The position numbers and the translations under genes are program-made. Shown here piece by piece: positions 3,248 to 61,658 of a stretch of DNA of 62,344 nucleotides. The notes beneath the pieces were generated by a model. The model saw only the letters and a list, made by a program, of their open reading frames with translations. It was not told the DNA's origin and did not search any database. The DNA lies in contig JAUWTM010000007.1 of NCBI GenBank assembly GCA_030614715.1, positions 1-62,344 of the forward strand. Reading direction: 5' to 3'. Each line of letters begins with the position of its first letter. Position 1 is the stretch's first letter. Source of the DNA: Planctomycetota bacterium (GTDB lineage: Bacteria; JAJVIF01; JAPKYR01).

Positions 3248-6200
3248 ATGGCCCATCCAGTTAAACTCGGTATCCTGACCGGTATCCTGATCCTGCTTTT
3301 TATCGGTTGTTCAGGACAGGAGAATCCTACGTCGCCTGTTTTAACCGGGAACGAACCATCTCCTGACCTGCAGGTTACCAGTCAGACGCAGGAGGAACCA
3401 GTTGATGCGAACCCGGGGCATTTCCTGTGGGCTTTCAGCGAGATCTACATCGATCCTGCAGAGATGGAATACGAAATAATCGTCTCACGGAGTACATCCA
3501 CTCACTGGAACATCCTGACATGGCTTGAGGACGGGCCATGCACCGACTGTTTCAGAATTGACAGCGTGACTCAATCAGGTAACAACACGCTCCTCATAGA
3601 TATCGAGGTCATGCACCCGTTCGACAACCCGAATCTCACCGGATTCGATGTCCGCGGGATCGCGATGTTTGCGGGCAGCAAAATCTTCACGAATTCCGGC
3701 CTGACAACCCCGGACCGTCTGCCTGGTGACGGAGAACTTGTCAATGCCGACGGTTACACGACTCTCTACAACTGGTCCACTGCAGGTTCAGGTCCGGGCG
3801 GCCTCCAGGGATACCAGTCAGGGAAATTCGAAGGTGCCAGCCCCCCGACAGCAACGCTCAACGGATATAAAATGTATTACTCAGACGACCCGCTGAACAC
3901 ACGTAACGCCTTCTACGCCGGGGAATCGAACATCGCGACATTCGAGATCGATATGCCCGACGGACCGTTCATTTTCGGTTACGCGGTCGATGCAAACTGG
4001 GCACAGCCGCTGGTAAAACCTGTCACCGATCCAATGTCGGACTTCCCGTCCTCTGCAAACTGTCCGGAGCCATGGAAAATTGAGGTATCCGAGGAACCCG
4101 ACGGCCTTGGACTCCATGACGAGGGCGGTATTACCTTACTCTGGCTTGATGTCTACGACTGGCAGGGGAAGGACAGCCACGAACTACCACTGATTGAGTG
4201 TGAGGAATTGTTTGATGGTGTCGGGATGTTCAGCTGGGCTGGAGACAATGCCGGCTACACAACATTTGCGAAGATCATACCGAATTTCAACCTGGCACCA
4301 ATCGGTGAGTACGAATGCCTTATCAGTGTCCGTGATACTGAAGCTGACTCAGCACCTGAATGGCTCGATTTGACCGCGTACCAGATCTTCACGCTCGAGG
4401 TCGTTGAATTTGTGGACGCGGAACCTGTTGCGATGGCGTCGGCAGATCCTACTACACAGAATATAGGCATGGATATCCATTTTACAGACGATGGTTCTTA
4501 CGATCCCGACGGCGGTACGATAATTTCACACGAATGGGACTGGGATAATGACGGCACCTTTGACGAGGGAGGAGACGATGTCACCCACTCATGGTCCGCC
4601 GAGGGGACCTATTACGTGCAGTACCGCGTAACAGACCAGGAAAGCTCGACCGACGTACTTGATGAACCGATTGAAATCAATATCGTATGGCAGGAGCTTG
4701 AGCCGATCGCTATAGCCTTCGCAGATCCGAATCCATTGGAAGTTTGTACAACGCTGACCTTGAACGGATCGGATTCATACGATCCGGATGGTGGCGTTAT
4801 CACGGATTGGCTGTGGGACATTGGTGCAGATGGATCAACCGATGGTTCAGGCCAGATCCTCGGGGTACCCATGGACGAGGTCGGTGAGATCCCGATCCAG
4901 CTCAGGGTAATTGACGACGAAGGGCAGGAAGACCTGCTCGATGATCCGATTATTGTCAGCGTTACTAACGTCCTGCCTACACCTGTCATCGACGTATTTC
5001 CAACCGAAATATATACTGACGAGCCGGTAAATTTCAGTGGTGGAGCCTCGATTGACAACGACTGTCTCGGTATGGAGATTGTCGACTGGGAATGGGACTG
5101 GGATAATGACGGCACTTACGATGAATCAGGCATGGAAACAACCCACCAGTGGGCGGTCGCTGGAACGTACTATATACAGTTAAGGGTCTGGGACGACGAG
5201 GGTGACTTCAAGGAACTCGACACACCGTACGAGCTTGAAGTGCTGGGACCGGTCTATCCAACTGCCGTTGCTGATTTCAATCCTGATCCTGATACAATTT
5301 GTGATCCCGTGAATTTCTACGACAACGGATCGACTGCTGGTGGTGCACCACCCCTGGACTATGCATGGTGGGACTGGAACAACGACGGGACCTGGGATGA
5401 TGGCGGTCCCTTCCCGAACGATACTTCGCATATATGGTACACACCCGGCACTTATTACGTGAATTACATGGTCAGAAACGATGCAGGTTTTACCGATGAA
5501 CTCGACGCACCGCTCGAAGTCGTGATCGAAAATGCGCTTCCGGTTGCAGTGGCTGAGGTAGACAGGACAATCACTGTTCCGTTGGACATTATTTCCTTCT
5601 ACGCATACGATTCATATGACGGTGACTGTGGTGGCGATTCGATTACACTCTACGAGTGGGATTTCGAAAATGACGGAACATACGACGACACGGATTCCTT
5701 CGTTCAACACGCATACGACACACACGGCACGTATGAGGTCCAGCTCAGAGTTACTGACAACGAGGGAGCTACAAGCACCCTGACAACACCAATCGAGATC
5801 GAGATTAACGACGGCTGGGTAAGAACATGGGGTGGTGTACAGAGTGAATCCGCAGAAGAACTCGCGTGTGATTACCTTGGGAACGTGTACGTGACTGGTA
5901 CATTCATGGACACGGTTGATTTCGATCCTACAGACGGTGTTGCGTCACGCACCTCCAATGGCACAATGGATATTTACCTCGTTAAATACAATAATTATGG
6001 TGAATTCCAGTGGGTTAAAACATGGGGAGGAACTGGTTACGACATCTCGACCGGCGTCGCGGCGTACGATCATTTCAACGTCTTTGTCTGCGGGTACTTT
6101 GAAGGCTCGGATGTCAATTTTGATCCCGACGGCACCGACCTGCATTCATCCAACGGAGATACCGATGCCTTCATCAGTAAGTTCGATGGAACGGGTGATT

Positions 6201-7186
6201 ACCAGTTCTGTGGAACCTGGGGCAGCACCGGTCTGGACGCTGCTCTTGGAATGGACCGTGACGACACACCTTACCTGTATGTAACCGGTGTCTTCTCGGG
6301 CACTGTCGACTTCAGCCCATGGACCGGAACTGCGAACCGGACTTCTGCCGGGCAATTTGACTGCTTCCTCAGCAAGCTGGGACCCAGCGGTACATTTTCG
6401 TGGGTCAATACCTGGGGTGGGTCTGATTATGACGGATGCACCGATGCCTCAGTTGCCAATGGACTGGTTTATGTGACCGGATATTTCAACGCCATCGCTG
6501 ATTTTAATCCCGGATCGATCGTTGAAAATCACACGTCGAGTGGTGGAACCGACATTTTCATCGGCAAGTACACCACCGGTGGTTCATATGGCTGGGCGTG
6601 GACTTTCGGTGGGGATGATGCCGATATGGGTAATGCAGTGTACGCGGAACGTAACAACAACGAATATATCTACGTCACCGGCACGTTCGAAGATACAGTC
6701 GACTTCAACCCATTCGCACCATTTGACAATCATGACTCTGAAGGTGAACGGGATGTATTCCTGTCGCGGTACAATGCCGAAGGGAACTACTACGGAACAC
6801 GCACGTGGGGCAGTACCGGGTCAGATTCAGGCAATTGCATATTCGGGGATGCTCTTGCCAATACAATATATGTACTCGGCAATTTCAGAATTGGCGCAGA
6901 TTTCGATCCGAATGCCGGATTCGAGTGGCGTAACTGCAATGGGGTAACCGATGCATTTCTTTCAGCATTTAACACCGGCTACAACCTGCAATGGGTAAGA
7001 ACGTGGGGTGGTGACCTCACTGACACAGCAGTTAGTGGCTCCGTCAACATCTGGGACCAGATTATGATCTCCGGCGCATTCGCTGATACCGTACAATTTG
7101 AGGGCTCTACGAGCTCGTCCGTGCGGGAATCGGAGGGCAGTGTAGATGCATACCTTGCCAGGTACTCCTCGAGCGGCACCTGGTAA
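3248..7186 (+). CDS. Lipoprotein A: GFDVRG-type N-module, five PKD domains, seven SBBP propeller repeats
   Basis: 1312 residues; SD GGAGG at 3237-3241. The signal peptide ends in LLFIGC (lipid-accepting Cys about 21), followed by the family's short proline linker (NPTSP). Residues about 50-385 are the shared N-module: HPFDNPNLTGFDVRGI, NADGYTTLYNW, ATLNGYKMYY, FGYAVDANW, ANCPEPWKIEV, VYDWQGK. Residues about 390-850 hold five PKD domains, each with a YDPDGG-type loop, a W(D/E)WDNDGT strand and a D(E)G ending; the fourth is the most divergent. Residues about 855-1312 hold seven SBBP-type repeats beginning WV(R/K)TWGG and containing VYVTGxF..TVDF.P, ending in the last repeat. Probably an outer-membrane or surface-displayed adhesion or carbohydrate-contacting protein; function unknown. 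Confidence 0.9.
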   Translation: MAHPVKLGILTGILILLFIGCSGQENPTSPVLTGNEPSPDLQVTSQTQEEPVDANPGHFLWAFSEIYIDPAEMEYEIIVSRSTSTHWNILTWLEDGPCTDCFRIDSVTQSGNNTLLIDIEVMHPFDNPNLTGFDVRGIAMFAGSKIFTNSGLTTPDRLPGDGELVNADGYTTLYNWSTAGSGPGGLQGYQSGKFEGASPPTATLNGYKMYYSDDPLNTRNAFYAGESNIATFEIDMPDGPFIFGYAVDANWAQPLVKPVTDPMSDFPSSANCPEPWKIEVSEEPDGLGLHDEGGITLLWLDVYDWQGKDSHELPLIECEELFDGVGMFSWAGDNAGYTTFAKIIPNFNLAPIGEYECLISVRDTEADSAPEWLDLTAYQIFTLEVVEFVDAEPVAMASADPTTQNIGMDIHFTDDGSYDPDGGTIISHEWDWDNDGTFDEGGDDVTHSWSAEGTYYVQYRVTDQESSTDVLDEPIEINIVWQELEPIAIAFADPNPLEVCTTLTLNGSDSYDPDGGVITDWLWDIGADGSTDGSGQILGVPMDEVGEIPIQLRVIDDEGQEDLLDDPIIVSVTNVLPTPVIDVFPTEIYTDEPVNFSGGASIDNDCLGMEIVDWEWDWDNDGTYDESGMETTHQWAVAGTYYIQLRVWDDEGDFKELDTPYELEVLGPVYPTAVADFNPDPDTICDPVNFYDNGSTAGGAPPLDYAWWDWNNDGTWDDGGPFPNDTSHIWYTPGTYYVNYMVRNDAGFTDELDAPLEVVIENALPVAVAEVDRTITVPLDIISFYAYDSYDGDCGGDSITLYEWDFENDGTYDDTDSFVQHAYDTHGTYEVQLRVTDNEGATSTLTTPIEIEINDGWVRTWGGVQSESAEELACDYLGNVYVTGTFMDTVDFDPTDGVASRTSNGTMDIYLVKYNNYGEFQWVKTWGGTGYDISTGVAAYDHFNVFVCGYFEGSDVNFDPDGTDLHSSNGDTDAFISKFDGTGDYQFCGTWGSTGLDAALGMDRDDTPYLYVTGVFSGTVDFSPWTGTANRTSAGQFDCFLSKLGPSGTFSWVNTWGGSDYDGCTDASVANGLVYVTGYFNAIADFNPGSIVENHTSSGGTDIFIGKYTTGGSYGWAWTFGGDDADMGNAVYAERNNNEYIYVTGTFEDTVDFNPFAPFDNHDSEGERDVFLSRYNAEGNYYGTRTWGSTGSDSGNCIFGDALANTIYVLGNFRIGADFDPNAGFEWRNCNGVTDAFLSAFNTGYNLQWVRTWGGDLTDTAVSGSVNIWDQIMISGAFADTVQFEGSTSSSVRESEGSVDAYLARYSSSGTW

Positions 7187-7239
7187 TTTATATCCACTGA
7201 GTTTTAGTAAAAATATATTTACATCTCATGATCGTCTAA

Positions 7240-7248
7240 TGGTACACT
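7240..7248 (+). promoter_or_regulatory. Extended -10 promoter for the membrane protein gene
   Basis: TGG plus TACACT (hexamer 7243-7248) matches an extended -10. A weak TTTACA lies 19 bases further upstream. The start would be near 7255, just ahead of the SD AGGAG (7266-7270). Confidence 0.4.
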
Positions 7249-7282
7249 CCCTCAATCCTGATTTAAGGAGTACTGAATTACC

Positions 7283-8242
7283 TTGCGTAACTGGCCACTT
7301 ATTCTCATCGTTGTGATTTCATTTGCGTCATTCGCCTACGGTATGGGCAAAATGGTCACCCCTGAGATGTACCGTGACATGTCCCCTCCCCAGCTCGGAT
7401 ACGTGTTCGTGCCGGACGACGACACATTCGTGGAGACAAACCATTACCTCGAAATCAGGTTTATACCGTTCGGACCGGAATATCCGGTTGCCGCGACTGC
7501 ATTTCTCAGCCATACGCTCTCCGGAGATGCAGAACCACTGGATCTCGAACCGGTTTTCTACGAAGGAGAACAAACCAATAAGTGGATCGCGATTCTCCCT
7601 CCCCTCGCTGACAAGGGTGATCGCTGGTTCTATTACTTAACCTTTGAAACCAGTGAAGGCAGGACCATCGAAATCCGCAAGGACATGAACTGGTTCGAGA
7701 AGCTTTTCACAGGATTCACGAAGGAAAAACAACTTTTCTGGACCACCTATGAGGGTAACGTAATCAGGGAGATACCGTCAGGTAAAGTACTGCTCGTGAC
7801 TCACATAGTTTTGACTATGGGCGCACTACTGCTCCTGTTCCATACGCTTTATTACGCATTTCAGCTGTTCGCGAAGCCAAACCGTTTCTATTTCCACAGG
7901 GCATATAAATCGGCATTCTGGGGAATCCTGTGCTTTTTAGTTGGCGCGATAATAATCGGCATCCCGATCACCGCTTATACGTTCGGCGTGGGATTCATGC
8001 CGTGGCCGACTCAGGGATTGACGTCGCTTGGCGATGTCACCGACACGAAAAGCTCGGCTATGATCGTCGCGTGGGCGATTCTTCTCCTGGCTAACTTCGG
8101 GGTGTACAAACGCGCGTTCCTGAAGAACGCTGAGCCGCGAAAATGGGTTCAGTTTGGCGTGTGGGTCATAATTGTATCATTGTTCACGGTGTTCATTTTC
8201 CTCATCCCGCACAGCCAGTTTATGCAGCAAAGCCAGATGTAA
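7283..8242 (+). CDS. Membrane protein with N-terminal extracytoplasmic domain and four TM segments
   Basis: 319 residues from a TTG start with SD AGGAG 12 bases upstream. The TTG start is preferred because it supplies a clean signal peptide (NWPLILIVVISFASFAYG); the next ATG would remove it. Residues about 22-160 form a soluble, probably periplasmic beta-rich domain with immunoglobulin-like character (phrases such as ETNHYLEIRF and DRWFYYLTFETSEG). Four hydrophobic segments follow, at about 168-192, 212-236, 254-272 and 288-310. No family is recognised. It precedes the PilB-like gene by 48 bases; a functional link to an envelope export or pilus-like machine is possible but unproven. Confidence 0.75.
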   Translation: MRNWPLILIVVISFASFAYGMGKMVTPEMYRDMSPPQLGYVFVPDDDTFVETNHYLEIRFIPFGPEYPVAATAFLSHTLSGDAEPLDLEPVFYEGEQTNKWIAILPPLADKGDRWFYYLTFETSEGRTIEIRKDMNWFEKLFTGFTKEKQLFWTTYEGNVIREIPSGKVLLVTHIVLTMGALLLLFHTLYYAFQLFAKPNRFYFHRAYKSAFWGILCFLVGAIIIGIPITAYTFGVGFMPWPTQGLTSLGDVTDTKSSAMIVAWAILLLANFGVYKRAFLKNAEPRKWVQFGVWVIIVSLFTVFIFLIPHSQFMQQSQM

Positions 8243-10184: not shown

Positions 10185-10236
10185 TCCGAAAATGCTGCGG
10201 CCAGCCTGATTATCGCGTCAACAGCGTAATTTGCGC

Positions 10237-10242
10237 TATAAT
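10237..10242 (+). promoter_or_regulatory. Perfect -10 hexamer immediately upstream of the glycosyltransferase
   Basis: TATAAT ends 9 bases before the GTG at 10252, so the mRNA would start at or next to the start codon (leaderless). A -35 is not convincing. Confidence 0.45.
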
Positions 10243-10251
10243 TCGTCGATC

Positions 10252-11031: not shown

Positions 11032-11107
11032 TAGCACAAACTGTATTTTACGATATTTGCATCTTTTACATATTTTAAATTTTATGTGCTGGACAAGATA
11101 ATATAAC

Positions 11108-11136
11108 TTGACATTCTTCTGAATACTAAATATTAT
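11108..11136 (+). promoter_or_regulatory. Near-consensus sigma70 promoter of lipoprotein B
   Basis: TTGACA at 11108-11113, exactly 17 bp, TATTAT at 11131-11136; start predicted near 11143. The leader to the start codon is therefore about 250 bases. Confidence 0.8.
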
Positions 11137-11142
11137 GTTCGG

Positions 11143-11390: not shown

Positions 11391-14300
11391 ATGAATCACC
11401 ACACAAGGATCGTAGTATTAGTTTTATTCGTCGTTTTGTTTATGACCCTATCGTGCTCGAAAGGTTCTGATCCGGTTACACCAGATGGTTCCGGACTTGA
11501 CCAGAACCAGTCAGAACTGACAGGAAATTTTACCGTCCAGTCACTTGAAGGCTCAAACCGTTATTTAGCTGGATATTTCAATGTAACTGTAGACACGGTT
11601 TCCGGGATCGCAGAAATAGTCCCGGATCGTAGCGTTATGATGCATTACAATGCTGTTTTTACGATGCATGAAATCGGTAGAGACGATTTCGTCGATATTT
11701 ATTATCCTGGAATGTATCATGGAGAACCAGCGGCGGAGGCGCACACAATCTCTTTCTCAATAAGTAATATATTTCCCGATAACTTCAATACGTATTTTGA
11801 TGTGCGTGGGATTGTCATGTTCGAGGGACATAAGTATTTTGAATCGCACAACCTGATGGCAGCTCTGGATCCTGAAACCGACAATATCGTTACAAACCCG
11901 GACGGATATACAACCCTGTACAATCCTTACACTGAGGGTAACGGTCCGGCCTATTGGCCGGGGGTATGGGGCTATCTGCCAATTTGGCCGGCAACTGAAG
12001 ATTATCCGAATGTAACGCTTTGTCCGTTCATCCGTTTTAAAACCGATGTCCACCCTTTGCCTGAATTCTCTCACATTGATAATTACCGTAATGCATTTTT
12101 CCCGGGTTGTACGGAATCCGAGGATTTTGAGATGCAAGTGCCGACAGATCCAGTTCTAAAATTCGGGTTTGCTGTAGATTGCTGCCGTGATTTATATCCC
12201 TATAGCGAGCCGGAAATGTTCGATGATCCTGTTGGGAATTACCTCGATCGGTTTCCCCCGGGGGCAAACTGCGAGGAGCCGTGGAAAATTGAAGTTTCTG
12301 ACACGTTTGAGACTGATAGAGCAGAGGTTACATTAACAATCGACGTCTATGATGATATAACAGATCCCGGCTTCAGCCAAAGTCATTTTCCACCGAAAAT
12401 TGAATGTCCGGAATTAATTCCCGGCATTGTACTCGGAGGAGAAGGTCATGCTGATGCTATTGAATTTAAATTTGATGACGGTGCTTTCTGCCGTTATGAG
12501 GTGAGATTTGTGCCAACCGTACAGTACTCAATTGACAAGTGGTATCCAGTATTGATCAGTGTTGAGGATGAAAAAAACGATGGGGAACCCTTACTTGACC
12601 TTACCGCTTACAAGACACACTACGTCCAGTTTCCGCGTGAGTTATTGTATTTTACAGTTGTCGATTGTGTAGATTCCGATTCCTATGATGATATTACAGC
12701 CAGTTTGCAGACCGCATGGGATTCCGGATATACAAAAGTTGTGTTATCCGATTATTTCTTCCACGATCCCGTTTATGTACAAGATCACAGTGATTTTATA
12801 GATGATTTCGTGGCAACAGCAAGTACTATCGGCATGCAGGTGATACCTTCGATCCAGGGTTGGGGATATAACACGAATAATGTCGAGGGTATTGGTCCCG
12901 TCGGCGGAAACCACGAGCAATGGTATATCAATGATAACGAAAACGAAGGGCAACCGGTCTGGGAATGTGAATTTTTAGTTGAAGAAACTGCACCCGGCTC
13001 TGATGTTCTGGTTATTAATCAAATTCCTGATAACCTGGTTGTTGCTAATCACGACTTGGATCCAGCCGTAGTTCCCATTGGGTGGACGATCTCCCCTGCT
13101 AATGTTCGACTAATTAATACTGACGGCCACGGGGATTCAGACTGTGTTGAATTTTACAATCCTGTTCCTGGTCCGGAAGATCAGTTTGTATCAGGTGCCC
13201 TTGAACAATCTGTGATGCTGGAACCAGCTAATTGGCAATGTTATGAGGTTTCAGTGTTTTATAAGACCTTAAATATCAGCCCAACCAGCAAAGGTACTAT
13301 TAGAATCACAGCCAAAGGCAACGTGGGTGGTGGCGATGATGTAATTCTAAATTACTGGGAACAGACATGTGCGCCAACCTTTGGTGAATGGGGACAGGAA
13401 CAAATAACATACTATTTTAACAGCCAGGATTTTGAACAGGTGTATCTTCGCTTTGATGTCACACTTAACAATTTCGAGTTACGACTGGATGACATTCACG
13501 TCGAAAATATCGGGCTCGCACAAATCATTAATCATGATTACGCCCCGGTATCCTTATATCGTGAAGTTCAACCTGGACTTCTGGATTATTTTGATTACTG
13601 GACAGAATACGTGATTGATTACGATACACAAACACTGGAAATTATTAATCCTTTCAGCTTCACGCTTGGTGAGACAATTAAAGCTGACTTTTTCCACAAG
13701 TTTTACGTAGATGGTCGTGGGTTTTTTCCACAGTCTGAAGCCAGGACTCATCTTCGCGTAATTGGAATAATGAATTATTTTGATGATCTTGATGATCTAT
13801 ACTCGAATATTCCTTCGATATTGCTAGGTTGCGATGAAATTAGAGGTGCCGGCTGGCGACTGATGGATTTCGATCACCTTACTAACATGGCAAGTCCACC
13901 ACCACCTGCCAACGAAACTATGAGTCGTTTAATCCGGCAGGCAGATGTGTGGGCTCATTTCATGCGGTGGGATACTACTCCCTGGAAGTTAATCCCCTGG
14001 AGTGACATGCTTGATCCGGTACAAAATGGCTCCACTGATCCTTATTACTTGTTCAATGGTTTAGGTGGCACAAGTTGCACAGGTTCATTGTTCAATGACG
14101 ATTGGATAATTGGTAACTGGAATCCAATGGTCTATGAACTTGATGGCACTGTTTACAATTTCCGGGGTCCATCAATGGCGCATTTCGATAGTTATTCCAA
14201 ACCCCAAATCTTATGCGGATATTACGGAAAGGATACTATCGATGGTGATTGGGATCCCCCGATTCCAGCAGGTGCTTATGAAATTGATCCTTACGAAAAA

Positions 14301-14453
14301 CGCATCGAAGAATGGCTGGATCAATCAGTACCATACGAATCTGTTTATGCTGTAATGTACTGTGTCTGGGATCCACCTAACCCCCCTTATGATCCCTATG
14401 AAGACCTGGATGAATATGCTCAGCGCGTCAGGTACTGGGAACTTTATAATTAG
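11391..14453 (+). CDS. Lipoprotein B: N-module plus TIM-barrel-like domain with an inserted beta-sandwich
   Basis: 1020 residues. The ATG at 11391 is chosen because of its SD (AGGAGA, 6-base spacing) and a clean signal peptide with lipid Cys at 22 (TLSC); an upstream in-frame start would add 16 non-signal residues. The N-module (to about 400) is recognisable but divergent: FDVRGIVMFEG, NPDGYTTLYNP, FGFAVDCC, ANCEEPWKIEV. From about 416 a probable (beta/alpha) barrel starts (LLYFTVVDCVD, then KVVLSDYFFHD, MQVIPSIQGWGY). It is interrupted at about 565-705 by a carbohydrate-binding-like sandwich and resumes with ILLGCDEIRGAGWR, where the D-E pair sits where GH20-like enzymes keep their acid pair. 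Glycosidase activity is a guess. Base composition is clearly AT-richer than neighbours (23/60 G+C at 13381-13440). Confidence 0.88.
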   Translation: MNHHTRIVVLVLFVVLFMTLSCSKGSDPVTPDGSGLDQNQSELTGNFTVQSLEGSNRYLAGYFNVTVDTVSGIAEIVPDRSVMMHYNAVFTMHEIGRDDFVDIYYPGMYHGEPAAEAHTISFSISNIFPDNFNTYFDVRGIVMFEGHKYFESHNLMAALDPETDNIVTNPDGYTTLYNPYTEGNGPAYWPGVWGYLPIWPATEDYPNVTLCPFIRFKTDVHPLPEFSHIDNYRNAFFPGCTESEDFEMQVPTDPVLKFGFAVDCCRDLYPYSEPEMFDDPVGNYLDRFPPGANCEEPWKIEVSDTFETDRAEVTLTIDVYDDITDPGFSQSHFPPKIECPELIPGIVLGGEGHADAIEFKFDDGAFCRYEVRFVPTVQYSIDKWYPVLISVEDEKNDGEPLLDLTAYKTHYVQFPRELLYFTVVDCVDSDSYDDITASLQTAWDSGYTKVVLSDYFFHDPVYVQDHSDFIDDFVATASTIGMQVIPSIQGWGYNTNNVEGIGPVGGNHEQWYINDNENEGQPVWECEFLVEETAPGSDVLVINQIPDNLVVANHDLDPAVVPIGWTISPANVRLINTDGHGDSDCVEFYNPVPGPEDQFVSGALEQSVMLEPANWQCYEVSVFYKTLNISPTSKGTIRITAKGNVGGGDDVILNYWEQTCAPTFGEWGQEQITYYFNSQDFEQVYLRFDVTLNNFELRLDDIHVENIGLAQIINHDYAPVSLYREVQPGLLDYFDYWTEYVIDYDTQTLEIINPFSFTLGETIKADFFHKFYVDGRGFFPQSEARTHLRVIGIMNYFDDLDDLYSNIPSILLGCDEIRGAGWRLMDFDHLTNMASPPPPANETMSRLIRQADVWAHFMRWDTTPWKLIPWSDMLDPVQNGSTDPYYLFNGLGGTSCTGSLFNDDWIIGNWNPMVYELDGTVYNFRGPSMAHFDSYSKPQILCGYYGKDTIDGDWDPPIPAGAYEIDPYEKRIEEWLDQSVPYESVYAVMYCVWDPPNPPYDPYEDLDEYAQRVRYWELYN

Positions 14454-16782: not shown

Positions 16783-19700
16783 TCATTCGTAACCCATTAC
16801 GTAAATCTGATCGATGAGCCATCCTGAATGCTGTGTTCCAGCCGATCCCGTCGCTGCGGCAAACGCTATCCTGAACCCGTACGGATTACTGAACCATGAT
16901 GGATCAAGCTGGTGCAGTGAGAATCTCATGAAAGTACCATTGTCGTCATCGCTGAACGCAGCCATGCCGGCCATTTCGTGGTCGCTGATCAGTACGCAGT
17001 CGTACCCGTTGAAACCGGGTTCCAGCACGACCGGTTGTACGTTCCACTGGAAGTCATCCATGTACGTTTCACCGTCAAGGATGTGGATATTACCACCGTC
17101 CTGGCACAAGCTGATCTGTTCGTTCTCCTCGAACTCGTAAGAATGCTGGACTCCGACCTGCACACCGGAAAATCCGGGAGGGATGAAGATCGGTGGCGAG
17201 ATAAGAACACCATGACTGCTGGCGTCATATTCATAGTCCCCGCCTGTGAACGTCGGTCCCCTGCCGGGAAGCTCCGGATGCGTGTACCATCCGACATACC
17301 AGAACGAATTGCTGCCCTCCTCGAACCTGGCTTCCCAGTGCCGGTAATCGAAATCTGTCGAACCACCTTCCCACGTAGCGTTGAAAATCAGGCCGCCACC
17401 CACTACCCAGTCGCTTCTGACAGCGGATGGATGCCACGCATCCCGAATCTTGAACAGTACCGTGTACCGGTTGCTGTTCTCAAGGTAGCCGTACGCCTCG
17501 TCTATTATTTCCTGCACTTTGAAATTGATCGAGTCATTGCTGCAGTCCGGATAGTAACAGGATTCGACCCTGTTTCCGGGATAACTCAGATCCCATAAGT
17601 ACCACTGGTAGTAAACCGAATCGCCGTCAGGGTCATCAGCAGGTAGTGTCAGGACCATTTCCTTGTCGAAAGTGGGAGTCAGGTCGCTTCCGTCTATTTC
17701 CCCCACCACAGGCGGATCGTTTGGAGTGTCGTCGAGTATATAAACCTTCACATCGTCGATCAGCCAGCCCCGTAGCGGGTAGACAGGGTAATTTGACGTT
17801 GCAGCTGCAAAACCGATATTTATCCTGTTCCCGGCTTCTGCCGGATCAATTTCGAACACCGATGTAACAAGCTGTGAATTGGTGCCGGAAAAGATTTCCT
17901 GGTCCTCCATGATGTAACTGACGCTGGGATCTGTTACCAGGGACCAGTACGGTCGTCCGGCGATTGTATCAAGGGGTTCGGTGTTCCATTCCGGGTATAC
18001 AGGCCACGGACCCATCTTTACATTACCGCCGTGATAAGCATGCCAGTCATTATCGGTCTCAAGGTTGTAAACCTCACCAAAATCAAATGAATGCCTGACA
18101 ACCACCACCGCCTTGGTCATGATTTCAGGCAGATCGACAAACGGGCTTATCAGCATATGAGCCGAATTCCAGTCGCAGTCTGTATTCGGTGTTCCGAATT
18201 TACGACCCGTCCCCTCAAGCAGACTATCGGTGACAGCGCCAGTAGACCATTTGGACTCACCATCGTATCCTGCACCACTCATATAAAACCAATTCTTGTT
18301 ATCACCGGTCACGGTATCATTCAAATCGGCATGATAGATAAGCCCGTTCACCCAGACCGTGTACGGCTCAGCGTGGACGGGTGGATTGTGACCGTCGTCG
18401 ACCCGGCACTTAATCAACCATTCACCTTCCTGAATTCCCACCGGGTCGAAGATGACATCAACCGAGCCGTTACCGTCACCCTCTCCGAGATTCACTGTAA
18501 GAAGCCCGTCAGGATGTTCGATTTTCCACTCGTAAGTCACGGGTAAATCCGAATCCACCTCAACGCTGTATGTAACCTCATGTTTATTCCTTGGATATAA
18601 CGGACCCGCAATTCCGCTGGTGAATACAGGGGGATCGGGTTCCATTGCGGCTTCAAGTTCAATCTCATACTGGACCATTTCTGTTTCATTGTGAGTCAGG
18701 ACCCGAAGGTAATGCGTTCCCTCAGTACAAAGACCAACTGTGTTGATGCTTGCGGATCCTCCCAATGCAGTTTCCTCCGCAAGTTTAGTGTAGTTGTCAT
18801 CGTAAAGACTCAAATGTGTTTCTGCAGACCCGGTATGGAGAGTCGCCGTACCCTGCTCCCAGAAATCCGATCCGAAATCGAACCTGTAGTAATCCGCGTA
18901 ATCGACCAGGTCCCCACCTATACGACATAACGAGCTTTGCAGGCTGTAATTCCATACCATGGATTGTGCGTCATCGAAGAGATTATTTGCATCGGGCTCG
19001 CACACCTGCTCCGGAATGTACAGAATTATCTCCTGGTACGCGCTGATCGGCTCAGCGGGAGCCACGGGACAGAAGCTGTTGTAGTGAAGGTAGTCGAGTG
19101 AACCCACCCGAACCAGAACGAGGTGCTGCCCGGACGCAACCGGCACTGCATCACCTGTCAGATCGATGCTGTACGTGGCTTTGACGCCATCATCCGAGAC
19201 AAGATCCATCGTAAGACCGCCATCGAACAGTTCCGGTGCGTAAATCCTGACGGTACTTACCTCGTTCGCAATGTTCCCGAGAGATTTTCCCTGCCAGTCG
19301 TAGACCTCGGCTGAGATTTCCAGCTGCCCGCCGCCTGAACCTGCGTCTGGGTTGAAATAGAGCGTGTTCACTGTCGCTTCGACGTCAACTATGTATGCCT
19401 CCGACATATTTGCATCCATAGGGAAGTCGTCCGGTACCTCAAGGGGCGGCATGGGGTCGGGATAATCCCACGACACATCGACAGCGTAATTAAAAGCGGC
19501 TGGAGCACCCGGTTTCGTCGGCAGTTTTATAAGAAACCGGCGTGTGAGAGTCGATCCGGGGTACGTAATGCCCCTGCCGTAGTCATGATCGAGAGGTAGA
19601 ACTGTCATGTCTGAAACGGGCTGAAATTTATCGAGGTAATCGCAGAAGTATTTAAACGGGTTGACGGTAGCAGTTAACAGGTTAGAGTACGGCGATCCAA

Positions 19701-20265
19701 GTTCACCTGTGACAAATCCGAACAGGCCCGGATCGGTGAACTCGGTTGGATTCCACCATCTGGTGAAACCGTCGGGGTAAAGCAGACGCCACTCGTCCAC
19801 ATCGGCCAGCAGACTCGTACCGATCTCAAGGCTCCCCGGTGTGATCATTATGCCGCGTGCGTCGAAGCCGTATAAATACTGGCTGTCCGGGTACGGATGG
19901 CTGAATGAGAAATCCAGTGCATAGATTCCATGCGCAGGATCGCTCATCGGAAAGTCAAAGCTCACCGAAGCGGCATCGAGATTATTCAAATCCTCTACCA
20001 GGTTTACGTGAAACAATGCGGACCTGAGGGGAACCATGGTCACATCGAGTTCTTCAGTGTCAATCACAACCTCGTACAAACCCATTAATGTACGTCCGCC
20101 GTGCCCAGTCCCCTGTGCTGTTGCATTTGTTACATCTGGGATGGCCGACGGATCGGGACTGGTCGGAATTTCACCTCCCGAGCCTGAACATCCTGTTGTG
20201 GTTGTGCAGAAAATTACACAGACCAGCATACCGATTATGATCTTGCGGGTTTCTTGCGATAGCAT
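16783..20265 (-). CDS. Lipoprotein C: N-module, PPC-like domain, Ig-like domain and two sandwich modules
   Basis: 1160 residues. The ATG at 20265 has SD GGAGGTGG; an upstream in-frame start would add 18 residues and spoil the signal peptide. Lipid Cys is about 26 (TTTTGC), linker EIPTSPDP. N-module about 50-400: HPYPDSQYLYGFDARGIM, YPDGFTRWWNPTEF, ATVNPFKYF, FNYAVDVSW, VPDDFPMDAN, VYDWQGK. About 418-548 is a PPC-like beta domain (EPDANNLFDDA, YADYYRFDF, YLRVLTHN). About 550-640 is Ig-like (VTYEWKIEHPDG). Two related modules at about 645-855 and 930-1160 each contain H(S/Y)F/E-type strands, a GxVKM/GGNIHIL strand, 'TSVFEID'-like text and GWLIDDVKVY or GWLIDQIYVM, as in MAM or immune-inhibitor-A-type sandwiches. 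The host-like base composition is uniform. Confidence 0.9.
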   Translation of the reverse strand: MLSQETRKIIIGMLVCVIFCTTTTGCSGSGGEIPTSPDPSAIPDVTNATAQGTGHGGRTLMGLYEVVIDTEELDVTMVPLRSALFHVNLVEDLNNLDAASVSFDFPMSDPAHGIYALDFSFSHPYPDSQYLYGFDARGIMITPGSLEIGTSLLADVDEWRLLYPDGFTRWWNPTEFTDPGLFGFVTGELGSPYSNLLTATVNPFKYFCDYLDKFQPVSDMTVLPLDHDYGRGITYPGSTLTRRFLIKLPTKPGAPAAFNYAVDVSWDYPDPMPPLEVPDDFPMDANMSEAYIVDVEATVNTLYFNPDAGSGGGQLEISAEVYDWQGKSLGNIANEVSTVRIYAPELFDGGLTMDLVSDDGVKATYSIDLTGDAVPVASGQHLVLVRVGSLDYLHYNSFCPVAPAEPISAYQEIILYIPEQVCEPDANNLFDDAQSMVWNYSLQSSLCRIGGDLVDYADYYRFDFGSDFWEQGTATLHTGSAETHLSLYDDNYTKLAEETALGGSASINTVGLCTEGTHYLRVLTHNETEMVQYEIELEAAMEPDPPVFTSGIAGPLYPRNKHEVTYSVEVDSDLPVTYEWKIEHPDGLLTVNLGEGDGNGSVDVIFDPVGIQEGEWLIKCRVDDGHNPPVHAEPYTVWVNGLIYHADLNDTVTGDNKNWFYMSGAGYDGESKWSTGAVTDSLLEGTGRKFGTPNTDCDWNSAHMLISPFVDLPEIMTKAVVVVRHSFDFGEVYNLETDNDWHAYHGGNVKMGPWPVYPEWNTEPLDTIAGRPYWSLVTDPSVSYIMEDQEIFSGTNSQLVTSVFEIDPAEAGNRINIGFAAATSNYPVYPLRGWLIDDVKVYILDDTPNDPPVVGEIDGSDLTPTFDKEMVLTLPADDPDGDSVYYQWYLWDLSYPGNRVESCYYPDCSNDSINFKVQEIIDEAYGYLENSNRYTVLFKIRDAWHPSAVRSDWVVGGGLIFNATWEGGSTDFDYRHWEARFEEGSNSFWYVGWYTHPELPGRGPTFTGGDYEYDASSHGVLISPPIFIPPGFSGVQVGVQHSYEFEENEQISLCQDGGNIHILDGETYMDDFQWNVQPVVLEPGFNGYDCVLISDHEMAGMAAFSDDDNGTFMRFSLHQLDPSWFSNPYGFRIAFAAATGSAGTQHSGWLIDQIYVMGYE

Positions 20266-46674: not shown

Positions 46675-46681
46675 TAGATCC

Positions 46682-54528: not shown

Positions 54529-57294
54529 CTATGGCACGTGGTACACGTACAGGTTATAACCACCTGCGGTGATCATGTATTCATCGACAAACGCCGGTCC
54601 GGCACGAAAATAATTCAGATCCCCTGTGCCGATCGTGTGGACCGTGTTTCCGTTGGTTATGTCTATGAAATAGATGATGCCCGTATATCGTTCGATCTGG
54701 ACCACAAGACCATTTGGATAACTGGGTGTTGTTATTACGCCCGTGGTTGAGTCGAAGTAGCCCGTGAACGAGGACTGCCACTTAAGGTTGGCGCTCGATC
54801 CGTTATCGGTGATTGCATACACCCTGCTGCCGCTGTAGACGGTCCCAAGGAACAGATCGCTTCCGTACCTGGAGCATCCACCGGCTGTGAAGCTGCCCGG
54901 ATAGTTAAAGCTCCAGATCAGGTCTCCCTCGAGATAACCGTCATGATCGGCAATTGCCACACAGTCGAGATAACCAGTATAGTTAGCAATGTATGCCCTT
55001 GTTTCGCTCAGGCAGGGAGTGACCCAGAGAACGTTGCTGCCTGACAGGTTCGCTGTCCATTCAAGAACACCGGTAGAGATATTCACACAGTCGAGATAAG
55101 GACCGCATATTACATAGGCCTTCCCGTTGGCTGCAGCAATGCCTGCTTCGCCACCTGCACTCACTGGAACTTCGTAATCGAGGGTTCCGGTTACAACATC
55201 CACGATATGAAGTGTCGCCTGGTTCTGGCACTTCGCGAGCACCTTTCCGTTGTAAATTGTCATCTGGGTGCCGATGTACATACCGTCAACGGGTGAGGTG
55301 TCATCGTACGTCCATAATGGAGGTGGGTTGGTCCCCGATGAGTTGGCATCGAAGCAATAGATCGCGTCTGTCGCAGCCACGATGTACTCATCTGTGCCAT
55401 CTTTGTAATATCCCAGGCACGCGTTGATTCGAGGTGATGAAACGGAGTAATTCACCCTCCCATTCCAGATGGGCGCTCCGGTCAGCAGGTTGTTACAGTA
55501 AATTCTCGCGGAATATGCGCCATCGTAATAATTCGTGTAGCTCATGTGGAAAATTTTATCACCGGCTACGATCGGCGTGATGTTTTTAAATCTCTGTGGA
55601 GTGGATGCAGCATACATCAGCTGCCAGTCTGTTGGATCAGGGCTGCTTGCTGTCGGGTTATAGCCGAAGTGGGACGGGTTGTACATGTGATTCTCCCACC
55701 AGTACGGCCATGTCTGCTCAAGGACTTCGAAACCGTCGGCAAGTTCATCGAACAGTCCGCCGGGGTTGGTCACCCGCACGTTATAGACACCAATCTCTGC
55801 TCCAGCACCACCGTCGAGATCGAGATCGCACGTTATTGTCGTTCCACCTGTCACGACTTCATTGTCAGCCTCGATCATGACGCCGGGTGCATCGTTCTTG
55901 ATCAGCGTAACCTCTGCGCCATTGATGAAATTCAGTCCTGTTACCTCGACATCTGTAATGGACTCGTCGAGATAACCCTCGACCGGATCGATTGAGAGTA
56001 CTGTCGGCGGGGTGTCGGAGCCTACAGCCACTGTAGTTGAGAAATACGCTGCCAGCGCACCCTGGGGGAATGCAAATCCGGGGAATCCTGGATCGTAACT
56101 TGACGGATCAATGTTTTCTACAACTATCATTACCGGGAAGGTCCCGGCATGATCAGGTGTACAGGCGGGAACCTCGAGGAGATACGTGGCACTGATTGCA
56201 TCCTCACCGATTAACGCGCCTGCGAGTGCTGTTGAATCAAACGTGGCGAGTCCGCCAACGGGGAGCAGGTTGTCGGGAGTTTCAAGGTGGATCGCGTTGA
56301 TCTCGGCTGCTACACCACTCGGGCTGACCGCCCCCTGGTGGTCGAATACCCGGACCTGCAGGCCCAGTGTTCCCCCGTTTGTCGTCCCATCGACAAAAAA
56401 CAGATCCGACATGTCAGCCGCGGAGAGCACGTACGCTTCCTGGCAGTTTGCCACGAGCGGAAAGTCGTCCGGGACCTCGGGAGGTTCATTTTCAGGCATC
56501 TCCCAGCTGGCTACCACCGCGTACTGGAATTCGTACGCAGGGATTCCGCCCGGTGTCGGGAACTGTATCTCGTATGTCCTGCGGTTTGTATTTCCAGCCG
56601 AGAAGAGCCCCCTCGGATTTGGGCATCCCGGGTCGGCGAAGAACGCGACTTCGTCCTCATCACTCGCGAGGATGTCGCAGTAGTACTTGTATCCGTTCAA
56701 TGTCGCCGACCAGTTGTATGTCGGCATCCCGAGTGAACCCATCGTAAATCCCAGGATCGTCTCGACCGTAGCAAATTCGGTCGGATTGAACCATCGAGTA
56801 TGGCCGTCAGGATTTATCACGTGGAGATCTTCCGGACCGGCATAAAGTATTTCGCTGTCGGCCAGTCCGCCGATCGATCCGTTGCCTATGCAGGTTCCAC
56901 GAACGTCGAATCCGGTGTATACAGTGAGTCCCGGGAACGGGTGAGTGAAGATCACATCGACCTTGACATACCCGGTCTCCCATTCGGTCTCGGAACTGAT
57001 ATCAATTCCCATCAGGTGGTGAGTGGCAATGGGCGGCTGGAGAAATTGAGTCACATTGGCAGTGAACTCCAGTCCGCGAACAGGTACGATTTCTGCTGTA
57101 CCGGTGTTTGGGTCCAGTGAGACGTCCCAAATTCCCCACAGATGTGTATTGCCTGGTGCAGATGAGGTTTGCACGCGGTCGGAAAGATCAGGATCGGGAG
57201 ACGTCGGGTTTACACCTCCCGAACATCCTAAAATAAACACCAGAACAGCTAACAGAGTGATAAGACCCGGTGGGGAGGAGGTTTTACTGGCCAT
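54529..57294 (-). CDS. Lipoprotein G: N-module, TIG domain, PQQ-like propeller
   Basis: 921 residues from ATG 57294 (SD AAGGAG); an upstream in-frame start would add 20 residues before the signal peptide. Lipobox VFILGC, Cys24, linker GVNPTSPDPD. N-module about 45-400: LWGIWDVSLD, VPVRGLEF, HPFPGLTVYTGFDVRGT, NPDGHTRWFNPTEF, ATLNGYKYYCDIL, FSAGNTNRRTYEIQFP, FQYAVVASW, VPDDFPLVANCQE. Residues about 428-525 are an IPT/TIG domain (PTVLSIDPVEGYLDESITDV, VRVTNPGGLFDEL). Residues about 545-921 have PQQ/WD-like blades: VYCFDAN-type 'AIYCFDANSSGTNPPPLWTY', 'GKVLAKCQNQATLHIVDVVTGTL', 'YLDCVNISTGVLEWTANL', 'RVYAITDNGSSANLKWQ'. A Trp in the 'LW/EW' position recurs in each blade. Confidence 0.9.
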   Translation of the reverse strand: MASKTSSPPGLITLLAVLVFILGCSGGVNPTSPDPDLSDRVQTSSAPGNTHLWGIWDVSLDPNTGTAEIVPVRGLEFTANVTQFLQPPIATHHLMGIDISSETEWETGYVKVDVIFTHPFPGLTVYTGFDVRGTCIGNGSIGGLADSEILYAGPEDLHVINPDGHTRWFNPTEFATVETILGFTMGSLGMPTYNWSATLNGYKYYCDILASDEDEVAFFADPGCPNPRGLFSAGNTNRRTYEIQFPTPGGIPAYEFQYAVVASWEMPENEPPEVPDDFPLVANCQEAYVLSAADMSDLFFVDGTTNGGTLGLQVRVFDHQGAVSPSGVAAEINAIHLETPDNLLPVGGLATFDSTALAGALIGEDAISATYLLEVPACTPDHAGTFPVMIVVENIDPSSYDPGFPGFAFPQGALAAYFSTTVAVGSDTPPTVLSIDPVEGYLDESITDVEVTGLNFINGAEVTLIKNDAPGVMIEADNEVVTGGTTITCDLDLDGGAGAEIGVYNVRVTNPGGLFDELADGFEVLEQTWPYWWENHMYNPSHFGYNPTASSPDPTDWQLMYAASTPQRFKNITPIVAGDKIFHMSYTNYYDGAYSARIYCNNLLTGAPIWNGRVNYSVSSPRINACLGYYKDGTDEYIVAATDAIYCFDANSSGTNPPPLWTYDDTSPVDGMYIGTQMTIYNGKVLAKCQNQATLHIVDVVTGTLDYEVPVSAGGEAGIAAANGKAYVICGPYLDCVNISTGVLEWTANLSGSNVLWVTPCLSETRAYIANYTGYLDCVAIADHDGYLEGDLIWSFNYPGSFTAGGCSRYGSDLFLGTVYSGSRVYAITDNGSSANLKWQSSFTGYFDSTTGVITTPSYPNGLVVQIERYTGIIYFIDITNGNTVHTIGTGDLNYFRAGPAFVDEYMITAGGYNLYVYHVP

Positions 57295-58193: not shown

Positions 58194-61100
58194 TCAGTAC
58201 AGATCCCAGATTCTTATACCCCTGTCATATACAGTTTCGTAGTAGTAACCATCATGGGCTATATTCCCAGTGATGGTAGTTGCGTTAGAAGTATCGTACA
58301 ACTGGCCCGTCACGACCGGATCGTCCGGAGGCCAGACCCTTACTGCGCTTGGGACTTCCGCAACCGGGAATGGCTGCAGGTATGCAAACTGGTTATCAAC
58401 AGTCACGAATTGGCCATTAGGGCCGGCGGGATCAGTTTCAGACGCATGAAATACCGGAGCCAGCGGATTGGAAATATCAGCTATCTCGAGCGACCCGGAA
58501 GTAGAGATGTAAAGGTAATCACCATCGACCTCGATGTCTCGCGCTACTCCCAGCGCTGTGTAGGTTGTCTGGTAAACCGGTGACAGTGGATCGGCAAGCG
58601 AGAATACAAGAATGCTGCCGTCCATAAGAAGAGCGTACATCGCACCGTCTTTGAAATTAAACTCAAGGATATAATCGGCCACCGACATGAAACCTGAGGC
58701 TGTGATAGACGGCCAGCCACTCAGATTCCACATAGTCATCTCCTTGAAGCTTTGGGCTCCGACGTACAGAACACTTTCAGTCATGCCTACACAGCCGATG
58801 AAGTCAGCGGTGTAAACAGCATTAACCTCAGACAGGTTTTCCGGATCACTGCAATCAATCCCTACGACATATCCATCAGAGCACCCGATGATCAATTTGT
58901 CCCCTTCGACATCTAAATAGTACGATATGCGATTGAGTTTAAGCTCATCCGCCAAATATGCGTTGGCAGGATCGCTAATGTCCACACTTTTAACTGCATT
59001 ATATCCCAAGTGTGATTCAATTTCGTAGATATATTCACCCTCGATCCTAAAGTTTCTGGGTGCTACAATACCGATAATGTCAGGGCCACCTGAAATTGAA
59101 CCGGGTTCATAGATTATGCTTAGTTGCAGACCTCCCGGACCAATTGCGTGATATAAATAATCACCACTCGATTCAAAACTATAAGTGATAGGTGTGTTGA
59201 TCGTCACGTCATCCACCGGTCCTGGATTATCCGGATCGGAAACGTCAATATCTGACAGCACATTATTAACGTAATATGCTACATATGCATAATCGTCCTG
59301 AACCTCTACAAATCCCTGATCCCATGGTAATGACACAGAACCCCTGGGAGTTATCCCTCCGGCTGTCATTTGAATGATCTCCAGACTATAGGACGCACCA
59401 TCACTGATGTGAAAATACACCAGGTCATCCACAACCTCGAAGTCATTAAACCAGGAGGCTGCTCCCCAGTACCAGATACTTGTAGGTCCGACGTTGTGAA
59501 TGTCGGTAACGTTACAATGTGGCAGCGTATTCTGGTTTACATTAAACAACAGCCATCGTGTTGGATCTGACTCCACTGTCGCTATTTTCATATCCGTTGG
59601 AACACCGATATTGATTGACCCCATTAAAAATGTAGACTGGAAAGTCAATTCTGACGGTAGATTATCAAAGCTGAAGATATCGACATTGGTATTGACCGAA
59701 TCGAAAGTTGCCACGTACAGGTAATCCTCATCAACTGTCATCGTCCATACCGCGTCCGTCATATTGAGTTCAACTGGCAGTATAATCGGGTTTTCAGGAT
59801 CAGATACATCGACTACATGTATCAGATATTCTGGGACTGTAGTAGCATCATGAATAAACAAATAGGGATACGCCAACACCGGTCTGAGGTCACAATCCAC
59901 AGGTATCCAGCTTTTAAATTCAACGGTCCAATTATCAACGTAATCGTAGATCCACAAGTTGTTTCTATCCAGGGCGTAGAGGTAAGTCCCGTAAGTACAA
60001 AGAAATAGTGGATGATAGAAAAGGTCATCCGGAGTGACATCGACAGCATCTGACGGTGTTACGTCCTCGATTAAATTCACAGGCTCGAGCATGTACAGGA
60101 ATGCGGTATCCAGTGACTGCGTCTGTACAACCACGTAATAATCGCTCGGCATTATTCCCATGCCATCCATATCAAGCGTGGCAACACCCCCAACCACCTG
60201 TTCTTCAGTTATCATGGTCTCGGACGAATCGTATAGCTGGATCTTGGACGGCTCAACGTCGCAGTAAAGCACCAGGTCACCGGTCACCTGCGACCCATAC
60301 GGAATTTCCAGTTTGAAGTAATCCTTGTAGTCCGTCGGTCCGCAAAGCTGGTCGATGGTCGGTTCTTCGAAATCCATTAATATGGACTCGTTGAAATCGT
60401 TATTCGCATCGGCTGTGCAGCTGGGATCGGTCACATCGACGATGAGCGTCTGCCACGCTGCTACATCGCCGGATGGCGCGGGTTTACCCAGACCCTGATT
60501 ATATTGCAGGCCGCCTTCCGAGGTTACCTTCACGGCAACGAGAGCTTCACCGGCCTCTGCGGGTGAGGCAAGACCGAACAGGCTGGCTGTGTACCTGGCT
60601 TTGTCCCACGATTCATTCAGGAAGACGCCATCTACCCCACCCGACATCAGGTCTGGTGAGTACACCCTGACACCACCGATCTCAGCCTGGTAATTTCCGG
60701 CAGCCTGACCCTGCCAGTCGTGTACGTTGACCTGCAGCTTCAGCATTCCGCCACCGACACCGGATTCACTGTCGAAATAGAGCGAATTGCCGACCTGCTG
60801 AGCTACCACGCGGTACGCCTCAGGCTGGTTTGCGTTCATCGGGAAATCATCGGGAACTTCCGACGGCGGATTAGGTGTTGGAATATTCCACGATGCATCA
60901 ATTGCATAACCATAGGTCACCTGCGGACCCGGAGCCATCGGGAACCGGATCTCATACCGCCTGGTGTTGCTCGATCCCGCTCTGAAAACCGCCCTGCCCT
61001 CATCTGAATCCAGAGGCTCACTGACAACCCATGCGAGAGAGTCCCACGCGCTCAATTTATCGGCGAAAAGCTTGTACGGGTTGACTGTCGCGGTCAACTG

Positions 61101-61658
61101 GCCGCCTGTCGCATTCGCGAGAATGCCCTGCGTGTAACCGAACATGCCCGGTGACGTAAACTCCGACGGATTCCACCACCTTGTATATCCGTCAGCGTTT
61201 TCAAGTTGCGTTTCATCCACATCGGCGAAGTACAGGGAGCCTACACCAAGCGATCCGGGGGTCATCAGGATTCCCTTCACATCGAATCCCGACAACTGGG
61301 GCTTTGTGCCGAAGGGATGAGTGAGCGTAACGTCGAATACGAACAGTCCGTTCGGCGGATCATGTTCTGACGGCACCCCGACTGCGCTCACACCCATCGT
61401 GGTATTTAAAATGCCTGTAACGTTCAAATGCAGTTGATTCGATCTCAACGGAATGACATCGATGGTCTGCGAGCCTTTGTCGATCTGGAACTGGTACCAG
61501 CCCAGGCACATGTGACTCTGTGCCTGTTGCTGTCCTGAATCGAATGTGAACAGCGAATCAGATTCATTGTCGGGAATTGTCGGGTTCGACTGACAACTCG
61601 CTATTGCCAGGATTAGTAGTAATAATGCGGGATACAAAATGGGTAGTCTGCCGCTCAT
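58194..61658 (-). CDS. Lipoprotein H: N-module, PPC-like domain, LVIVD-type propeller
   Basis: 1154 residues; SD AAGGTG; lipobox LAIASC (Cys22), linker NPTIPDNE. N-module about 50-400: LGWYQFQIDKG, VIPLRSNQLHLN, HPFGTKPQLSGFDVKGIL, NADGYTRWWNPSEF, ATVNPYKLFADKL, FRAGSSNTRRYEIRFP, YGYAIDASW, VPDDFPMNANQPE, VHDWQGQ. About 411-526 is PPC-like (TADANNDFNES, YKDYFKLEIPYG, YYVVVQTQS). About 530-1154 is a long run of LVIVD-like blades: HVVDVSDPENPIILP, NVLSDIDVSDPDNPG, AVKSVDISDPANAYLA, VGIDCSDPENLSEV, LVFSLADPLSPVYQ, LEIADISNPLAPVF. The C-terminal DNA is AT-richer than the N-terminal DNA (24/60 G+C at 59821-59880, 31/60 at 60721-60780). Confidence 0.9.
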   Translation of the reverse strand: MSGRLPILYPALLLLILAIASCQSNPTIPDNESDSLFTFDSGQQQAQSHMCLGWYQFQIDKGSQTIDVIPLRSNQLHLNVTGILNTTMGVSAVGVPSEHDPPNGLFVFDVTLTHPFGTKPQLSGFDVKGILMTPGSLGVGSLYFADVDETQLENADGYTRWWNPSEFTSPGMFGYTQGILANATGGQLTATVNPYKLFADKLSAWDSLAWVVSEPLDSDEGRAVFRAGSSNTRRYEIRFPMAPGPQVTYGYAIDASWNIPTPNPPSEVPDDFPMNANQPEAYRVVAQQVGNSLYFDSESGVGGGMLKLQVNVHDWQGQAAGNYQAEIGGVRVYSPDLMSGGVDGVFLNESWDKARYTASLFGLASPAEAGEALVAVKVTSEGGLQYNQGLGKPAPSGDVAAWQTLIVDVTDPSCTADANNDFNESILMDFEEPTIDQLCGPTDYKDYFKLEIPYGSQVTGDLVLYCDVEPSKIQLYDSSETMITEEQVVGGVATLDMDGMGIMPSDYYVVVQTQSLDTAFLYMLEPVNLIEDVTPSDAVDVTPDDLFYHPLFLCTYGTYLYALDRNNLWIYDYVDNWTVEFKSWIPVDCDLRPVLAYPYLFIHDATTVPEYLIHVVDVSDPENPIILPVELNMTDAVWTMTVDEDYLYVATFDSVNTNVDIFSFDNLPSELTFQSTFLMGSINIGVPTDMKIATVESDPTRWLLFNVNQNTLPHCNVTDIHNVGPTSIWYWGAASWFNDFEVVDDLVYFHISDGASYSLEIIQMTAGGITPRGSVSLPWDQGFVEVQDDYAYVAYYVNNVLSDIDVSDPDNPGPVDDVTINTPITYSFESSGDYLYHAIGPGGLQLSIIYEPGSISGGPDIIGIVAPRNFRIEGEYIYEIESHLGYNAVKSVDISDPANAYLADELKLNRISYYLDVEGDKLIIGCSDGYVVGIDCSDPENLSEVNAVYTADFIGCVGMTESVLYVGAQSFKEMTMWNLSGWPSITASGFMSVADYILEFNFKDGAMYALLMDGSILVFSLADPLSPVYQTTYTALGVARDIEVDGDYLYISTSGSLEIADISNPLAPVFHASETDPAGPNGQFVTVDNQFAYLQPFPVAEVPSAVRVWPPDDPVVTGQLYDTSNATTITGNIAHDGYYYETVYDRGIRIWDLY

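Follow-up and report, generated by a model that had tools for sequence, protein, structure and literature searches.

The 62,344-nucleotide stretch analysed here (the window, contig JAUWTM010000007.1 of the Planctomycetota bacterium assembly GCA_030614715.1) encodes eight lipoproteins that share one N-terminal module (the N-module) and differ in their C-terminal parts, here called tips. The N-module is new and very widely used in its host, although proteins with a constant stalk and variable tips are a known theme, and the bacterium carrying the window probably has a few hundred lipid-anchored proteins built on it. We give about half of our confidence to the explanation that these proteins form a lineage-specific lipoprotein family, in which a common stalk on the outer membrane would be copied by recombination and would carry replaceable tips.

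All eight open reading frames (ORFs) that a sequence-only reading of the window had assigned to this family are open from an ATG start (Table 1). They lie on both strands as that reading had it, three on the forward and five on the reverse strand, and their lengths sum to 26,055 of 62,344 bases (41.8%), in agreement with its figure of about 42%. The N-module comprises approximately 350-400 residues behind the lipoprotein signal and is common to seven of the proteins, while some members of the family have a shortened form. Pairwise phmmer and profile comparisons bear out the module shared by the seven, but not the whole list of motifs that had been given for it, several of which (WWNP, RRYEI) are missing from p1 and p2. 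More specifically, when the first 430 residues are compared by phmmer, 15 of the 21 pairs match at E 9e-20 to 1e-98; p1 and p7 have no pairwise match, p2 pairs with p1 only and joins the others through the profile, and p3, p4, p6, p7 and p8 form a closer set. By these comparisons chance is excluded as the source of the N-module similarity.

The remaining protein, p5, had been described as keeping the signal, the linker and a divergent form of the module, and it does retain the signal, the tether and the first ~125 module positions. It has no pairwise phmmer match to the seven over the first 430 residues and is found by the seven-sequence profile (E 7e-9, positions 12-119) and by a deeper profile built without it (E 2.4e-17, positions 2-127, with weak pieces near the module end); similar partial matches are common in relatives. 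The seven-sequence profile finds no ninth member among window ORFs of at least 60 codons.

Searches against Pfam and NCBIfam gave no match to the N-module in any of the eight window proteins. When 116 modules were searched against Pfam, no family was matched in more than one member (best E 0.0019), and the N-module profile has no significant match in the PDB (best E 0.55). These negative searches agree with the earlier proposal of a constant lipoprotein module that lies outside named families and precedes differing C-terminal parts. The check suggested with that proposal, a hidden Markov model of the seven N-modules run against genomes, returned a large family and not a named Pfam domain. Viral contigs scanned with one full-length family protein contained no relative, and a text search, in a body of literature short on subscription journals, found no description of such a family.

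The family had been put at eight members, a figure that both a genome-wide profile search and a systematic sample show to be more than tenfold too low. In G000, the genome to which the window belongs (4.29 Mb in 254 contigs, 87% complete), the profile of the seven window modules (A2) matched all 150 places scored out of 356 first-look candidates, the weakest at E 1.4e-70. The systematic sample of G000 took the first 20 kb of every 13th contig in two sets (40 stretches, 506,485 bases) and holds 30 family ORFs, edge fragments included, covering 69,177 bases or 13.7%; the two sets contributed 20 ORFs in 282,014 bases and 10 in 224,471, and extrapolation gives roughly 190-300 family genes for the genome. 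G003, a relative of the same class (4 contigs, 99% complete), has matches at E <=1e-5 to a deeper profile in 133 of 150 scored places (196 candidates), corresponding to ~126 genes once split places are merged by eye, and a sample of 400,000 bases from it contains 16 family ORFs on 10.2% of the bases. With A2, matches per 150 scored places number 137 in G001, 118 in G002 and 113 in G004, and 37 of 109 places match in G003.

Many family genes stand in tandem arrays, and the family takes up ~10-14% of the sampled bases in the two genomes. The sample counts of G000 and G003 are possibly low because the profile, run locally in default mode, missed both genes of the G003 locus L186 described below. 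The set of 186 complete proteins used for comparison was collected at E 1e-3 with filters off and may include a few false members, such as the subtilase-like L071:81-3737. Contig ends in family genes were considered as a sign of collapsed repeats and rejected, with 9 of 71 ends lying in family ORFs where ~13.7% is expected and few end overlaps. In-frame stops occur in a few members that are possibly decayed copies (G001:C53:8754-9815 and several G004 places).

The family is present in five of five genomes of the phylum. Among 386 genomes searched with the deep profile, with up to five candidates scored per genome, six match, namely the five of the phylum and one borderline case out of the 381 others (G298:C119:4248-4517, E 3.5e-4, 78 positions within the first ~80 of the module). 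Scanning named genome contigs brought up 32 loci. Of these, 31 belong to the metagenome-assembled genomes (MAGs) Planctomycetota bacterium CSMAG_1386, which we take to be part of a cold-seep MAG series, or LacPavin_0920_SED3; these are G002 and G001, respectively. The remaining locus, L096 (MHUC01000007.1, from base 15), lies on a contig titled Candidatus Wildermuthbacteria, a member of the candidate phyla radiation (CPR). It encodes a shortened module copy (E 5.8e-41 with a profile built without L096) followed by an Ig-like stretch and a propeller, beside clpB (these by eye). The gene contains a run of N, and the locus may reflect either transfer to a CPR bacterium or a chimeric scaffold. Separately, a lipoprotein with PrcB_C repeats (L143:1203-5195) resembles the module distantly by eye in its first ~250 residues, below profile detection, and the superfamily may be larger than the profile-detected set.

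An artefact of metagenome assembly or binning is barely conceivable as the origin of this pattern, given that the family occurs in five genomes, one of them of 4 contigs and 99% complete, that nearly all listed members are open frames (few have one stop) and that listed contamination is 0.6-4%. What speaks for an artefact is the state of G000, with its 254 contigs and 87% completeness, and the fact that the near-identical blocks of G003 rest on assembly.

The direct evidence for exchange lies in two gene pairs of G003. At L186, two genes (C1:1,016,325-1,020,038 and 1,022,273-1,025,896, with a short family gene between them) share 2,280 bp at 99.9% identity. Upstream, this identity ends 55 nt ahead of the open frame; downstream, the frames are identical for 738 codons and then continue into tips of 24% identity (E 3e-11) that have no DNA match. 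At L188, two neighbouring genes are 98.5% identical over a block of 1,516 bp that begins shortly before the likely start codon and runs slightly beyond the module; after it the genes differ (1,215 versus 1,017 codons, with a local tip match at E 8e-15). Both shared blocks stop abruptly upstream and at the end of a domain. A search of G003 with the L186 block found, beyond the two ~100% copies, long stretches of at most 74% identity and a few short pieces exceeding that value, among the 40 of 145 candidates scored.

The C-terminal parts had been called interchangeable from the letters alone. This holds at the DNA level in the L186 and L188 pairs and more weakly in the window's own genome, where a milder pattern is seen in three neighbours on contig C133 (modules 84-88% and tips 58-71% identical). 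At a further G003 locus, L185, a whole gene is duplicated (4381-7285 and 9661-12565, with a transporter-like gene, by eye, between the copies); the 21 differences are all confined to the block's first 85 bp, and both copies encode the same protein.

The tips themselves are diverse: in one taxonomic family, those of 112 proteins fall into 48 clusters. The commonest Pfam matches are LVIVD, PKD, SBBP and PQQ-like: the tips of 83 G000 proteins gave LVIVD 17 times, PKD_4 12 times, SBBP 8 times, and PQQ_2, ACSF4 and Beta_propel 6 times each, out of 37 Pfam families in all, 25 of which are among those listed. For the window, the domains named beforehand fared unevenly. PKD (p1, and p6 with seven stretches) and LVIVD (p8) are above Pfam cut-offs; the PQQ-like (p7), LVIVD (p5) and SBBP-type (p1) domains are matches under cut-off; and the PPC, MAM and TIG domains, the barrel of p2, the tip of p3 and the propeller of p4 have no Pfam or NCBIfam match. 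Outside the family, 46 of 1069 ORFs match a tip, many of the 40 listed being cut by locus edges. Single internal candidates for orphan tips exist, for example L051:12634-14358, and no orphan-tip arrays beside family genes were recognised among the tip-matching ORFs listed. In the region L187:10875-14042, a 584-codon tip-like ORF lies near a 512-codon ORF with a module match, which is either one gene that has been split or a module with a separate tip next to it.

A serious if somewhat unlikely alternative is a large paralogous family of the ordinary kind: old tandem duplicates in which the tips evolve more quickly than the module, with little or no exchange. Speed alone is insufficient for the two G003 pairs, because their module DNA is near-identical (98.5-99.9%) while their tips lack a long DNA match. 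Module and tip also differ in conservation among neighbours: in adjacent same-strand pairs, picked irrespective of similarity, the module is more alike in 47 of 48 (medians 50 versus 11%). Of these 48 pairs, 30 were usable for a comparison of synonymous differences, and in 18 of the 30 the module has the lower value (Wilcoxon p 0.028). The same holds for all 8 unsaturated pairs (proportion of synonymous differences in the module, pS, 0.01 to 0.59), which speaks against faster tips; the comparison modestly supports copying of the module among neighbours. This test replaced an earlier one on 21 pairs, where the module value was lower in 18, higher in 2 and equal in 1; those pairs had been pre-selected at module identity of at least 65%, favouring the result. 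Among the 186 complete proteins, module identity reaches 50% or more in 191 same-genome pairs, and the tips of 92 of these pairs are below 25% over the full length; the converse, tips of at least 45% with modules below 38%, occurs in 1 case. In a few cross-genome pairs, module and tip are equally well conserved (module/tip 68/70, 53/56, 53/57 and 52/60), which also argues against faster tips, although these four are the ones chosen for a well-kept tip out of 27.

That choice is one of several points that weigh against exchange as a general process. In the synonymous comparison the module is the more divergent part in 12 of the 30 pairs, and most pairs are near saturation. Tips match at E <=1e-5 in 169 of the 191 similar-module pairs and lack such a match in only 22, and the difference between N- and C-terminal parts is graded, as the paralogous-family alternative would have it. 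Cross-genome reciprocal best pairs have the module better conserved than the tip in 19 of 23 when chosen by module (medians 50 and 16%) and in 18 of 24 when chosen by tip (medians 47 and 33%); tips thus differ more than modules between genomes too, by replacement or by faster evolution, and because of these pairs faster tip evolution has to be kept in play. A near-identical module with a different tip at the DNA level is known from one genome only, in the two G003 pairs, and the tips of both retain the weak protein similarity given above. Finally, placing the 19 shared tip clusters (83 proteins) on a FastTree tree of 112 modules takes 27 tip changes, nine above the minimum of 18. The tips are mostly inherited with the module, with some replacement and with tree error allowed for, and such co-inheritance is what an ordinary paralogous family would give.

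A simple lipobox pattern, the criterion for a bacterial lipoprotein, is present in 102 of 123 complete distinct proteins, and all eight window proteins have a Cys after a hydrophobic stretch. The Cys is followed by a short, S/G-rich tether that often contains P..P, found within 16 residues of the Cys in 79 of the 102. In the window and the systematic sample, a stricter lipobox pattern retains 27 of 39 family ORFs, and 24 of these 27 have P..P, versus 11 of 36 other predicted lipoproteins (Fisher p 3.2e-6, family members not being independent). Among the non-family lipoproteins with P..P are two subtilases, of which one has an LVIVD match, and a multihaem cytochrome. Omp85 (PF01103) is above cut-off in both genomes tested, so an outer membrane is likely; LptD (PF04453) was found in neither of the two, which counts against this, in a search so insensitive that the control was detected in 2 of 14 only. 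The family proteins are probably outer-membrane, likely surface, lipoproteins, the surface location being suggested indirectly by the lipobox, by the outer membrane that Omp85 implies and by the P..P tether shared with cytochrome and subtilase lipoproteins.

It is quite unlikely, in our judgement, that these are periplasm-facing or inner-membrane lipoproteins, such as scaffolds or quality-control factors (BamB-like propellers), and not a display set. The tether in common with multihaem-cytochrome and subtilase lipoproteins speaks against it, and such a number and variety of tips, together with PKD arrays, are unusual for periplasmic service proteins; on the other side, some propeller tips match BamB/PQQ models, a lipobox does not specify the membrane face, and no surface-export machinery was identified, partner transporters not having been looked for. 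Two loci with related features were noted. The multihaem cytochrome lipoprotein L061:2497-6738, which has an S/G then P..P tether, sits between family genes, and L058:2641-13466 contains three consecutive large ORFs matched by one query; two of these were scanned, and both are subtilases that match LVIVD towards the end.

Under the favoured explanation of a recombining stalk with replaceable tips, duplicated genes would remain in arrays, and recombination inside the module would copy it between neighbouring paralogs. Where the border of the copied tract coincides with the module end, or with that of the next domain, the common stalk would be joined to another tip, and ordinary homologous recombination within the conserved module would be sufficient. 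The Cys would anchor each lipoprotein, most likely in the outer membrane and facing outward, with the tether and stalk holding the tip out; one cell would thus have a large set of heads on a common anchor, which may serve to hold particles, polymers or neighbours. We infer the generality and direction of exchange, the surface exposure, the ligand binding and the benefit. A bolder version, which we consider unlikely, would have the phylum give over a tenth or more of its genome to such a repertoire. Recombination would keep the stalk uniform across hundreds of paralogs and swap the tips at the domain border, each cell line would carry and renew a library of binding heads, and P..P would be a new surface-export signal, also for cytochromes and proteases.

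In scale, the PE/PPE proteins of mycobacteria offer a comparison, with roughly a tenth of coding capacity. They resemble the present family (PMC4758615) in having a lineage-restricted constant N-terminal module, varied C-terminal parts and a large share of the genome; the module is a different one, and the proteins here are lipoproteins of a host with Omp85. The Bacteroidetes surface lipoproteins with an export signal (PMC5080379) are likewise many per genome and have a short conserved tether after the Cys, whereas the tether here is S/G then P..P and the module is no named family. Many family tips match the LVIVD, SBBP and PQQ propeller and PKD families of Pfam, but the family is defined by its N-module, which these Pfam families lack.

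Rhs proteins have a conserved N-terminal part and evolutionarily decoupled C-terminal tips that undergo replacement, as described for them and for polymorphic toxins (PMC2935791; PMC3482391). A constant N-terminal part decoupled from its tip is also what the two G003 pairs show, and partially what is seen elsewhere in the family. The family differs from Rhs in that its tips are often propellers or PKD, with no toxin recognised in 25 of the 37 tip families, and in its lipoprotein signal, its copy number in the hundreds and the absence of recognised dissociated-tip arrays. We have not filed it under Rhs because neither a toxin tip nor orphan-tip arrays were recognised. The constant-N, changing-C layout known from Rhs (PMC2935791) would also suit a polymorphic-toxin-like competition system, with a constant delivery module and exchangeable toxin tips; this is very improbable, as no toxin domain was recognised in the 83 tips, whose listed families (the same 25 of 37) are propellers, PKD, Ig-like folds, one redoxin and others. 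As for immunity genes, the neighbourhood of L186 was listed for ORFs of at least 200 codons, and there is room for a small gene in the ~400 nt that follow one of the L186 genes.

With one module in roughly 130-300 proteins and on 10-14% of sampled bases, the family would rank, to our knowledge, among the larger bacterial surface-protein expansions. Module, tether and tips give a defined handle on how uncultured bacteria build and vary their surface, and the family may add an example, outside toxins and pathogens, of evolution with a constant stalk and changing tips.

Table 1. Family lipoproteins encoded in the window, with the extent of the N-module and the nature of the tip.
Protein	Position	Strand	N-module	Tip
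p1 family lipoprotein	3248..7186	+	3248-4387	PKD + SBBP-type propeller (SBBP under cut-off)
p2 family lipoprotein	11391..14453	+	11391-12617	no named family
p3 family lipoprotein	16783..20265	-	19027-20262	no named family
p4 family lipoprotein	25930..28251	-	27037-28248	no named family; 57% identity to G001 counterpart
p5 family lipoprotein	33849..36800	+	shortened, ~33867-34244; weak piece 34677-34760	LVIVD-like (under cut-off)
p6 family lipoprotein	36999..41063	-	39858-41057	seven PKD stretches
p7 family lipoprotein	54529..57294	-	56044-57294	PQQ-like propeller (under cut-off)
p8 family lipoprotein	58194..61658	-	60447-61658	LVIVD propeller; protein is top match of family profile

Two other features of the window were noted. 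The ORF at 29298-32834 encodes a Ser/Thr kinase with a fused region that resembles TOMM kinase/cyclase fusion proteins (match under cut-off), and at 45796-48454 nadC, an aspartate dehydrogenase-like gene and nadA stand in a row, a set for NAD synthesis from aspartate.

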